Below are positions 36,904 through 50,470 of a stretch of DNA of 64,000 bases, one piece after another; position 1 is the first letter of the stretch, and every line of letters starts with the position of its first letter. A program made the translations under genes and the position numbers. Origin of the DNA: Spirochaetota bacterium (GTDB lineage Bacteria > Spirochaetota > Spirochaetia > Treponematales > UBA12059); NCBI GenBank assembly GCA_026398615.1, contig JAPLSN010000022.1, positions 1 to 64,000 on the forward strand. The letters are read 5' to 3'. Under the pieces are notes generated by a model. It was not told the origin of the DNA, did no database searches, and worked only from the letters and a program-made list of their open reading frames with translations.

Positions 36904-36949
36904 GCGGGGGTTGAAAAGCCGCACGGGTCTTTCAACACCGCCTTTTTTT
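36904..36949 (+). terminator. intrinsic terminator after the GerMN gene
   Basis: GTTGAAAAG pairs with CTTTCAAC (one bulged A) inside an outer GCGG/CCGC stem, followed directly by T7. It lies ~110 bp past the GerMN stop and ends that transcript before the glycine cleavage operon. It could also attenuate read-through into gcvT. Confidence 0.75.
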
Positions 36950-37133
36950 GCGCAATTCCGCAACAGACATCATCAAATGCGGGGAATTGCCGGTCAGCCC
37001 GGCGAGAATCGTCAAGGTTTCCACCAGGCTTCCAGACTCATGTCATCCAGCACCGGGATTCACTGACGCCGCCTGAGCGCGGTTCGACTGAGACCGGCCG
37101 CGCTCTCCGGAACGCATCCGCAAGGAGGATACC
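36950..37133 (+). promoter_or_regulatory. structured leader region before gcvT
   Basis: After the T7 of the terminator, GCAATTCC (36952-36959) pairs with GGAATTGC (36983-36990), extended by GCA/TGC with two bulged G. Nearer the gene, GAGCGCGG (37075-37082) pairs with CCGCGCTC (37098-37105) 17 bp before the AAGGAGG site. The promoter of the gcv operon must lie here, but I could not define its boxes. The conserved core of the known glycine riboswitch is not visible, so a glycine response is not supported. Confidence 0.4.
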
Positions 37134-46830: not shown

Positions 46831-47388
46831 ATGGCCAAATCCTGGTACGTCCTGCACGTCTATTCAGGCTACGAGAACAAGATCGAAAAAATCATACGGC
46901 TCTATCTCGGGAACGGGGAGCTCGATCCGGCCATCGTGACCGATATCAAGGTACCGAGCGAGGAAGTCGTCGACGTGAAGGACGGCAAGCGGCGCATCTC
47001 GCGGCGCAAGATCCTTCCGGGCTACATTCTCGTCGAGATGGATCTCCCGGAAGCTGGCTGGAAAGCGCCCTGCTCGTCGATCCGCAAGATCACGGGCGTG
47101 ACGGGTTTCGTCGGGGCGACCCAGCACAACAAGCCGACGCCCATATCGCCTGAGGAGGCGCGCGAAATGCTGCAGCGCGCCGGCGAGATCAAGGGCGAGC
47201 GGCAGATCAAGACCAAGCAGACCTTCAACGTCGGCGAGCAGGTCAAGATCATCGAGGGACCGTTCGAGTCCTTCACGGGGATGATCGAGGAAGTCAGCAC
47301 GGACAAGAACAAGCTCAAGGTCATGGTGGGCATTTTTGGGCGCGCGACGCCCGTGGAAGTCGACATGCTCCAGGTGGAAAAGACATGA
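46831..47388 (+). CDS. nusG: transcription termination/antitermination factor NusG
   Basis: 185 residues: NGN domain (SWYVLHVYSGYENKIEKII, RRKILPGYILVEMDL) and a C-terminal KOW domain (GEQVKIIEGPFESFTGMIEEV). It binds RNA polymerase and couples to Rho or ribosome. Length matches the family; no inserted domain. Confidence 0.95.
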   Translation: MAKSWYVLHVYSGYENKIEKIIRLYLGNGELDPAIVTDIKVPSEEVVDVKDGKRRISRRKILPGYILVEMDLPEAGWKAPCSSIRKITGVTGFVGATQHNKPTPISPEEAREMLQRAGEIKGERQIKTKQTFNVGEQVKIIEGPFESFTGMIEEVSTDKNKLKVMVGIFGRATPVEVDMLQVEKT

Positions 47389-47802
47389 AAGGGTTGTGAA
47401 AAAGACCATGGGGCCTTTTTCACAATTGTCAATTTTCTGCAATTGTGCGGAAAACCGCAGGTTTTCCGGGCAATTGCAGGGCAGGTTGTTGAAAAGCGTC
47501 AAGTTTTCCGACGACCTGATCGCGAAAGCGACTTTGCCGGCGGGCCGATGTCCGGCGACAAGGTTTCCTATATAAAGGTCCCCGGTCACGCGTCGCGTGA
47601 CCAGGCATGCGGAACTACCTGGCGAACGAAGTTCGCCCAGGCAAGCGAAGCTTGCCGGGATTCCTTTTGAATGGGAGCTCGTCCCCGCGAGGGAGGCGGG
47701 CGCTACCTCGGTCTTCGCGGAAGGGGATACCCCGAAGCGACGCCCCGCGAAAGCGGAAGGCGGCCAGGCGCGGACCGGGTACACCACGAAAGGAGAATCA
47801 AG
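47389..47802 (+). repeat. nusG-rplK spacer packed with hairpins
   Basis: In 414 bp: (1) TTGTGAAAAAG/CTTTTTCACAA, 11 bp perfect (47394-47425), six bases after the nusG stop. (2) CTGCAATTG-tg-CGGAAAACC / GGTTTTCCG-gg-CAATTGCAG (47437-47479), 18 bp with one internal loop. (3) CAGGTTGTTGAAAA with TTTTCCGACGACCTG (47482-47518), partly G-U. (4) three hairpins with 3-base loops in a row, GGTCACGC-GTC-GCGTGACC (47584-47602), GGCGAAC-GAA-GTTCGCC (47621-47637), GGCAAGC-GAA-GCTTGCC (47640-47656). (5) CCGC-GAAA-GCGG near 47743. No promoter was defined. An L1 autoregulatory site is expected hereabouts. Confidence 0.7.
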
Positions 47803-48234
47803 ATGGCGAAAAAACAGGTCACCGCGATCGTCAAGTTGCAGTGCCCGGCCGGAAAGGCCACGCCCGCCCCGCCCGTCGGACCGGCCCTCGGTCCCCACGG
47901 CGTTTCGGCCCCGATGTTCTGCACGCAGATCAACGAGAGGACCAAGGGCATGGAGGTCGGCCTCACGATCCCGGTCGTGATTACCGTCTTCAAGGACAAG
48001 TCCTTCACCTTCATCACGAAGACGCCGCCGGCGTCCGTGCTGATCAAGAAGGCGATCGGGCTCGAGAAGGGCTCCCCGGTCCCGGACAAGCAGAAAGTCG
48101 GAAAACTTCCGAAGAACAAGTGCGAGGAGATCGCCAGGATAAAGATGGCCGACCTCACGGCCAACGACATCCAGGCGGCGATGCGCATAATCGCCGGGAC
48201 CGCCCGCTCCATGGGCATCGAGACGGAGCTGTAA
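47803..48234 (+). CDS. rplK: 50S ribosomal protein L11
   Basis: 143 residues: [39 protein letters not shown], then [19 protein letters not shown] and the C-terminal rRNA-binding domain. ATG 47803 with AAGGAG upstream was chosen over longer in-frame starts. Part of the GTPase-associated centre. Followed by rplA after four bases. Confidence 0.96.
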
Positions 48235-48238
48235 GGCC

Positions 48239-48922
48239 ATGAAGCACGGAAAGAACTACGAGAACGCGGTAAAGAAGCTCGACCGCACGCAGGAGTACGA
48301 GACCGCCAAGGCCTGCGCCCTGGTGAAAGAACTCCACTACGTCAAGTTCGACGAGACCGTCGAAGTACACATCAAGCTCAACCTCAAGAAGAGCCAGTCC
48401 GTCCGCGATACGATCGTCCTTCCCCACCAGTTCCGCGCCGAGAAGCGCATCATGGTGTTCTGCAAGGCCGACAAGGTCAAGGAAGCGATGGATGCGGGAG
48501 CCACCTTCGCCGGCGACAACGAGTACATCGAGAAGATCAAGGGCGGTTGGCTCGACTTCGACATCGCCGTGGCCACGCCCGACATGATGAAGGACGTCGG
48601 AAAGCTCGGCATGATCCTCGGGCGGAAGGGCCTCATGCCGAACCCCAAGACCGGCACCGTCACCCACGACCTCAAGGCCGCGATTGCCGAGCTCCGCAAG
48701 GGACGCACGGAGTTCCGCACGGACAAGTCAGGCATCATTCACCTTGCCGTCGGCAAGTCGAACATGGAGCCCGAGAAGGTCGCCGAGAATCTCAAGATTC
48801 TCATCGACGAGGTCACGCGAAGGCGTCCCTCCGACGTGAAGGGAGAGTTCATCGAGTCCGTGTACGTCGCCGGCTCGATGACCCCGAGCGTCAAGGTCGT
48901 CACGGCCAAGGCAGAGAGGTAA
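48239..48922 (+). CDS. rplA: 50S ribosomal protein L1
   Basis: 227 residues with IVLPHQFRAEKRIMVFCKADKVKEA, GRKGLMPNPKTGTVT and KGEFIESVYVAGSMTPSVKV. In E. coli it also represses its own operon at the L11 leader; here that would fall in the hairpin-rich spacer. Three bases separate it from rplJ. Confidence 0.96.
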   Translation: MKHGKNYENAVKKLDRTQEYETAKACALVKELHYVKFDETVEVHIKLNLKKSQSVRDTIVLPHQFRAEKRIMVFCKADKVKEAMDAGATFAGDNEYIEKIKGGWLDFDIAVATPDMMKDVGKLGMILGRKGLMPNPKTGTVTHDLKAAIAELRKGRTEFRTDKSGIIHLAVGKSNMEPEKVAENLKILIDEVTRRRPSDVKGEFIESVYVAGSMTPSVKVVTAKAER

Positions 48923-49937: not shown

Positions 49938-50470
49938 GGTCTGTTGCAGACAGTTCGATCGTCTCAAAAGGGGTGTTGGAAAAGCCGGATTCGGCTTTTC
50001 CGACATTTCCGTATCGTCGCGCAAATATGGATGATCGCGAAAAAGTCGCATACGATGAACACGCCGCGCCTGCGGGCGGTTCTGAAACCACGATGAACAT
50101 TGAAGCCGGGACGCTTCCGGCATGGAACATACAGGGCATGCCCGCGGCGCGAACGGCGGCGGGATGGCCGTCCGGGAAAAAAGCCGCTCACGACGGAGAT
50201 CCGAAGTTGGAAGAAAGCGTGAAACGCACGAAAGGGCACCGCCCGTCGCGGAAAGCCCGCGTGGCATCATCAAAAAATGCGAGGACTCCCGAAGGGGAGA
50301 CGTGCCGCAGGCGGTACAACGCCCGCGGACATCGAGCGAGGCGTCGGACGGCATGCGCATCCGGCTCGTCGCGCGGCTCCGCCGGGTCCTAAGGATCGGG
50401 GCGGAAACGCGGGAAACCGCGCGGCCGGCTCGGGAGCCGCATGCTCCCGTCCCGGCCCAGGGGGATACGG
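49938..50470 (+). other. rplL-rpoB spacer with a terminator-like hairpin (49975-50004)
   Basis: GTTGGAAAAGCCG and CGGCTTTTCCGAC form a 13-bp stem (one G-U) around a 4-base loop, 37 bp after rplL. There is no T-run, so partial attenuation before rpoB, known in E. coli, is plausible. CGGCTC-GG-GAGCCG lies near 50427. An open frame from about 49973 exists but shows no coding character. Otherwise nothing recognised in 533 bp. Confidence 0.5.

Follow-up and report, generated by a model that had tools for sequence, protein, structure and literature searches.

Why is the spacer between nusG and rplK of this spirochaete so rich in hairpins, and do these hairpins belong to one structure? The spacer comprises 414 nt from the nusG stop codon (47388) to the rplK start codon ATG (47803) and lies in a window, i.e. 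the entire stretch of DNA analysed, of 64 kb, taken from a genome (G000) of 3.38 Mb in 43 contigs, whose nearest relatives with a name are metagenome-assembled genomes of spirochaetes. The initial annotation described seven stem-loops here, among them a near-perfect palindrome of 43 nt and three triloop hairpins (GTC, GAA, GAA) within 73 nt, and regarded such a density as improbable by chance. The palindrome (47437–47479; 20-nt arms, 90% complementary, with 3 nt between them) and the three triloop hairpins are all present, and the density indeed exceeds the random expectation: the whole spacer folds at -203 kcal/mol (100 dinucleotide shuffles: mean -156.5, sd 6.2, none as low; z = -7.47), and the window contains 15 triloop hairpins of 7 or more Watson-Crick pairs, four of which are located inside the spacer (the GTC unit, the two GAA units and the tip of the 43-nt palindrome), whereas 500 shuffles of the spacer gave 0.05 on average and never more than one. 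The number seven depends on the way of counting, the predicted fold having more than seven hairpins. Our analysis indicates that these hairpins very probably do not form one structure, and represent instead a decayed copy of a MITE, a predicted operator for ribosomal protein L1 and a lineage-specific segment between the two. Both the MITE and the L1 leader are fresh members of already known kinds. The features of the region are as follows:

46831–47388, + strand: nusG (open reading frame call, tblastn anchors)
47389–47518, + strand: MITE copy with three hairpins, immediately following the nusG stop codon (R1 match, dispersed copies, comparison of ends)
47394–47425: outer hairpin at the left end of the MITE
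47437–47479: middle hairpin of the MITE, identical with the 43-nt palindrome
47482–47518: outer hairpin at the right end of the MITE, CAGGTTGTTGAAAAG...CCTG
47519–47660, + strand: lineage-specific segment of hairpins that precedes the L1 site
47584–47602: triloop hairpin GTC, 8 bp
47621–47637: first triloop hairpin GAA, 7 bp, a single occurrence in the genome
47640–47656: second triloop hairpin GAA, 7 bp
47671–47795, + strand: predicted target of ribosomal protein L1, ending in the rplK Shine-Dalgarno sequence (R2 match, anchors)
47671–47677, + strand: ATGGGAG anchor
47678–47700, + strand: helix P77, 47678–47686 with 47691–47700, one bulged base (fold, covariation)
47701–47705, + strand: CGCTA anchor
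47707–47779, + strand: helix P78, CTCGGTC (47707–47713) with GACCGGG (47773–47779) (sequence, covariation)
47783–47795, + strand: ACCAC anchor, then GAAAGGAG (Shine-Dalgarno)
47803–48234, + strand: rplK (L11)
48239–48922: rplA (L1), after rplK

Used as a DNA query against the own genome, the spacer matched seven other places with E < 1e-4. All these non-self matches fall within query positions 1–131, the rest of the spacer showing no repeat at this threshold, which puts a boundary within the spacer near 47518. A model of the repeated part (R1), built from five aligned copies with the window copy in the training set, matches the window at 47391–47518 with 130.8 bits (the score of a training member) and identifies, at E<=1e-4, 20 places in the own genome, the window included; none of them overlaps a predicted gene in a rough codon-model ORF call. 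With the same threshold, matches were found in 12 of the 23 genomes of the family (at least 150 in G002, 35 in G014, 24 in G005, 20 in the own genome and 2–8 in each of eight others) and were absent from 11. The element thus defined is dispersed, non-coding and about 130 nt long, with the ends CAGG...CCTG and with terminal inverted repeats of the form CAGG(N)TGYTGA. The window carries also a second, degenerate copy (36906–37030, + strand, 57 bits), and the long rplL-rpoB spacer contains a hairpin weakly similar to the MITE end (49971–50075; E 0.28 genome-wide).

The ends of the copies read in G014 and G002 are CAGGGTGTTGAAAA ... TTTTCAACAACCTG, with subfamily variants, and the pattern YTARCAGGNTGYTGA has 43 matches in G014, compared with none for the reversed control. 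In 400 kb of G002, taken from contigs with many matches, all 29 strict-pattern copies are flanked by YTAR on both sides, with identical four bases in 26, and 26 of the 29 are identical to the letter; in G014, YTAR flanks both sides of 12/12 copies picked as high-scoring, with identical bases in 11. Taken together, CTAG, CTAA, TTAA or TTAG occurs on both sides of 41/41 copies from these two genomes, and the two flanking tetranucleotides are identical in 37/41. Such flanks mark a mobile element that duplicates its target and has young copies. The copy in the window is an old, decayed one: no target duplication is recognisable in its flanks (ATGA and ATCG), and its left end has AA in place of CA. 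The MITE underwent a burst in G002 (L160, L180–L199; the 29 strict-pattern copies in 400 kb), where L160 carries three copies in succession with a spacing of 422 nt, and in one subfamily (L173–L175, L144) the two outer hairpins have jointly changed GAAAA to GACAA in their arms.

Which transposase uses such ends? Only end fragments of a full-length element were seen in a spirochaete genome: two G014 contigs break off some 125 nt into sequence beginning with CAGGCTGTTGAAA, beside TTAG or TTAA, and one of these contig ends encodes an apparent protein start of 21 residues. Pfam searches with the two end peptides gave no match, and tblastn with the 40-aa right-end peptide yielded no usable hit. The tblastn search with the 21-aa peptide returned two Thauera matches at E = 3, insignificant alone, to the IS5 family transposase of a plasmid; this hit was accepted only because its DNA ends then matched the MITE ends, the Thauera element (L215) being CTAA-CAGGTTGTTGA ... 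TTTTCAACACCCTG-CTAG, with 1384 bp between the YTAR sites. Both ends fit also in a Sphingobium relative (L226, transposase 46% identical), TTAA-CAGGGTGCTGAAAAAGG ... TTTTTCAGCAGCCTG-CTAA, and in a Cupriavidus relative (L227, 45% identical) the left end, TTAG-CAGGCCGCTGA, fits and the right end was not found, so that the three elements with related transposases start with YTAR-CAGG and two of the three are closed by CCTG-YTAR. A Desulfolutivibrio transposase (L228, 26% identity) has no such ends. The Thauera transposase consists of the Pfam domains DUF772 and DDE_Tnp_1, passes the NCBIfam IS5_4 model (230 bits, cut-off 140) and scores 219 bits with the IS1182 model, below its cut-off of 270. YTAR is also a known target of IS5-type elements.

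Among the spirochaete family genomes searched, none yielded an intact autonomous partner. As a marker for such a partner DUF772 failed, the gene being present in one of ten family genomes and its element ends being different, and pairs of element ends 0.5–3.5 kb apart in the stretches examined corresponded only to neighbouring MITE copies, with no transposase recognised between them. We read the 5' third of the spacer (47389–47518) as a decayed non-autonomous element of the IS5/IS1182 type, whose three hairpins are probably the element's own anatomy. It shares with known MITEs of IS5/IS1182-type insertion sequences the lack of coding capacity, the terminal inverted repeats, the YTAR duplications and the ends common to elements with DUF772/DDE transposases, but here each end is itself a hairpin, a third hairpin lies between them, and pairing is kept by compensatory changes. 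ERIC repeats are palindromic and intergenic, measure about 127 bp and have TA as the target; set against this description, the element is alike in being palindromic, intergenic and of similar length, and differs in sequence and in its YTAR target. The outcome is a MITE known across the family, matched by the model at least 150 times in one genome, whose ends can be linked to a class of transposases.

Behind the decayed MITE copy, the 3' part of the spacer presents a different picture. Among 62 distinct nusG-rplK spacers, that of the window included, 44 possess the motifs TGGGAG, CGYTA and ACCAC in this order; an anchor is lacking in 18 (L044, L046, L047, L051, L052, L053, L055–L062, L064, L066, L067, L092), of which L064, L066 and L067 are from Elusimicrobia and L092 has N. 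In an alignment-free comparison of the six-nucleotide arms beside the anchors, pairing with the own partner amounts to 5.70/6 for P77 and 5.57/6 for P78, and pairing with the partners of other species to 3.66/6 and 4.76/6, respectively; for neither helix did any of 2000 partner shuffles match the observed total. The helices of the rplK leader are conserved, with covariation. In the window, the inner hairpins of P78 are particular to its own lineage, and compact leaders of Treponema (L043) read GTGGGAG-hairpin-CGTTA-hairpin-ACACCAC-AAAGGAG.

A second model (R2) was built from ten leaders, with the window left out of the training. Applied to the window and to the loci of 45 of the other 61 spacers (16 were left out: L046, L047, L052, L053, L055–L062, L064, L066, L067, L092), it matched 38 of these 46 sources at E<=0.1, with eight giving no match; the hit in the window covers 47648–47796 (46.9 bits). 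In the R2-fitted alignment 96.7% of cells pair and all 11 pairs show changes on both sides, values that apply to an alignment fitted to the structure. With strict filters and E<=0.001, 55 of 146 genomes of the order have one match each and 91 have none, and in the own family 19 of 23 genomes are matched and four are not. In all 35 matched genomes with a compared rplK position the match ends at most 7 nt from rplK, and in the own genome the single match of this window-free model is the site in the spacer. The predicted operator is located directly upstream of rplK, with rplA in the same operon. The L1 target that the initial annotation had left as an additional option has thereby become a well-supported candidate, 47671–47795, on the strength of the ordered anchors, the covariation and the R2 match.

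The same anchors occur in the 23S rRNA of relatives. According to the review PMC10931766, uL1 binds helices H76–H78 of 23S rRNA and represses rplK-rplA via look-alike sites in the mRNA, which precede rplK in Proteobacteria and rplA or both genes elsewhere; the passages concerned mention no spirochaetes. A 23S gene was not found in the own genome, and the genes of four relatives were used for this reason; in all four the L1 stalk exhibits GTGGGAG ... CGTTA ... AAATACCACC. The three ordered anchors were found at two places in 518 kb of other sequence, both strands: the leader and L182:9791 in G002, the latter with no Shine-Dalgarno sequence behind it. In plain local alignment 3 of 58 leaders are best on the 23S L1 stalk, hence the proposed mimicry rests on the spaced anchors and not on overall similarity. 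The position of CGTTA differs as well: it is placed between the two strands of the inner helix in 23S rRNA and between two hairpins in the leaders.

We propose that 47671–47795 acts as the mRNA operator of rplK-rplA, a look-alike of the 23S site of L1, in which TGGGAG ... ACCAC would frame the covarying helices and the operator would reach the rplK Shine-Dalgarno sequence. Surplus L1 would bind this operator and block the translation of L11 and L1; binding and repression are predicted here from the sequence. Like the uL1 operator of the L11-L1 operon outlined in the review PMC10931766, the candidate precedes rplK, whose operon also contains rplA, and is close to the initiation region. It resembles the stalk (H76–H78) in the spaced anchors, with a different order of the helices; it differs from that operator in the two covarying hairpins between the anchors and in a 5' box, GCTTCTCATA or similar, which 19/21 of the closest relatives' loci add and the window lacks. 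This provides a concrete, testable candidate L1 operator for a spirochaete order in which Rfam matched nothing: the window gave no Rfam match above the curated threshold, and a search of six loci at E<=5 gave three chance-level matches, none of them in the leader or the element. The titles and abstract openings surveyed contain no description of such a spirochaete leader or of such an element, which is a weak negative, and in the main text of PMC7247131 ('Discovery of 20 novel ribosomal leader candidates') no word begins with uL1, L11, spirochaet, rplK or rplA.

Could the 5' part nevertheless belong to another class of repeats, or to the regulation of rplK? The REP-like array suggested by the initial annotation was correct insofar as the 5' 130 nt are a dispersed repeat. 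REP/BIME elements, which are mobilised by a RAYT (Y1 transposase), are likewise dispersed palindromic repeats, and the own genome possesses six PF01797 genes; however, none of these six loci (L102–L107, with flanks of about 1.5 kb as far as the contigs reach) yielded an R1 match at E<=1, on which ground this candidate was rejected. It is contradicted also by the target duplications, the young copies carrying 4-bp YTAR duplications and ends common to elements with DDE transposases, so that what remains in common is the dispersed palindromes and this origin is hardly tenable. Three of the six Y1/RAYT-like genes (L105, L106, L107) have upstream stretches similar to GGGACAG(T/A)GCT, some of them repeated, which represent another repeat. 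That the triloop units are themselves repeats was rejected for the one unit searched genome-wide, the first GAA hairpin (GGCGAACGAAGTTCGCC), which occurs once in 3.38 Mb.

Covariation was found both in the leader helices and in the MITE hairpins, each in several genomes; the outcome that would have refuted the initial annotation, absence of covariation and presence in a single genome, did not occur. In 19 MITE copies from eight genomes, drawn from the better matches, 98.0% of the cells of the three-hairpin consensus are paired and 23/44 pairs have changes on both sides; none of 500 shuffles reaches any of the measures, and slid versions are 37–47% paired, although the consensus tends to beat them partly because it was derived from the same sequences. 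The MITE keeps its hairpins by compensatory change, and for this reason covariation alone cannot assign the 5' part to the regulation of rplK. The same caution applies to the reading of genomes at large: since a mobile element covaries this strongly, covariation on its own does not count as evidence of a regulatory RNA, and even together with presence in several genomes it does not prove a cis-regulatory one. An interpretation of the whole spacer as one large cis-regulatory RNA of rplK, an attenuator or a processing platform involving all hairpins, could appeal to their location in a single spacer, to the extreme folding energy and to the covariation of both outer parts. Yet its 5' 130 nt match 19 other places of the genome; moreover, with R1 run on the nusG-rplK loci of 62 relatives (20 + 42), only L022 has the element in this spacer, in the orientation opposite to that of the window. 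A scan for consensus sites detected nothing resembling a promoter or a terminator in the spacer; the attenuator and the processing sites of the initial annotation remain conjectural, and a single regulatory RNA is very improbable.

Somewhat less improbable, but still unlikely, is the co-option of the MITE copy as the 3' end of the nusG mRNA or as an insulator uncoupling secE-nusG from rplK-rplA. The copy sits exactly behind the nusG stop codon, and in L022 (RA.bin110, of another genus, g9; G014; outside the 41-copy count) the element is again directly behind nusG, the stop codon TAG lying within a CTAG and YTAR being present on both sides with non-identical bases; the opposite orientations may reflect independent insertion or inversion. 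Furthermore, 6/20 copies in the own genome have their left end at most 2 nt from a same-strand stop codon (rough ORF call). Against this, the copy in the window is decaying, L023 of the same genus as L022 has no element in its spacer, and in G002 8/29 young copies directly adjoin, at one end or the other, the stop codon of a long open frame, a number close to the 6.1 expected from YTAR sites, which leaves a preference of the MITE for stop codons unsupported. We infer that the window copy has no essential role at this locus.

Between the MITE and the candidate operator lies a hairpin-rich segment that appears to vary from lineage to lineage. The relatives' leaders inspected have the order AGCGGC, hairpin, GCTTCTCATA, helix ending in CTCC, GATGGGAG, and the box GCTTCTCATA or a near form, an extra conserved 5' element revealed by the analysis of the leaders, is found in 19/21 of the closest relatives (L022–L041, L069; NusG 76–83% identical) and in 31/62 distinct spacers. 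In the window, 47519–47660 occupies the place of the AGCGGC-hairpin-GCTTCTCATA box, and the three triloop hairpins stand where one group of relatives (L024, L025, L027, L028 and L036 among them) has other hairpins. Judging by eye, we read this segment as a lineage-specific growth of hairpins on the 5' domain of the leader. Mimicry of the GTPase centre (the L11 site) by the 5' domain was considered and dropped, the best alignment falling there for 2/35 upstream domains and 1/58 leaders. Might the spirochaete rplK leader be a two-domain switch, the 5' domain competing with or gating the L1 site? This is a tentative and rather doubtful idea, entertained because CTCC can pair either with the upstream G-rich arm or with the GGGAG that belongs to the L1 site. 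Helix P2 was recognised in the leaders by visual inspection. If it were true, the conserved 5' domain (the AGCGGC-hairpin-GCTTCTCATA box with the CTCC helix) might sense a second input, and the species of the window would exhibit a 5' domain in the course of replacement with the L1 site kept.
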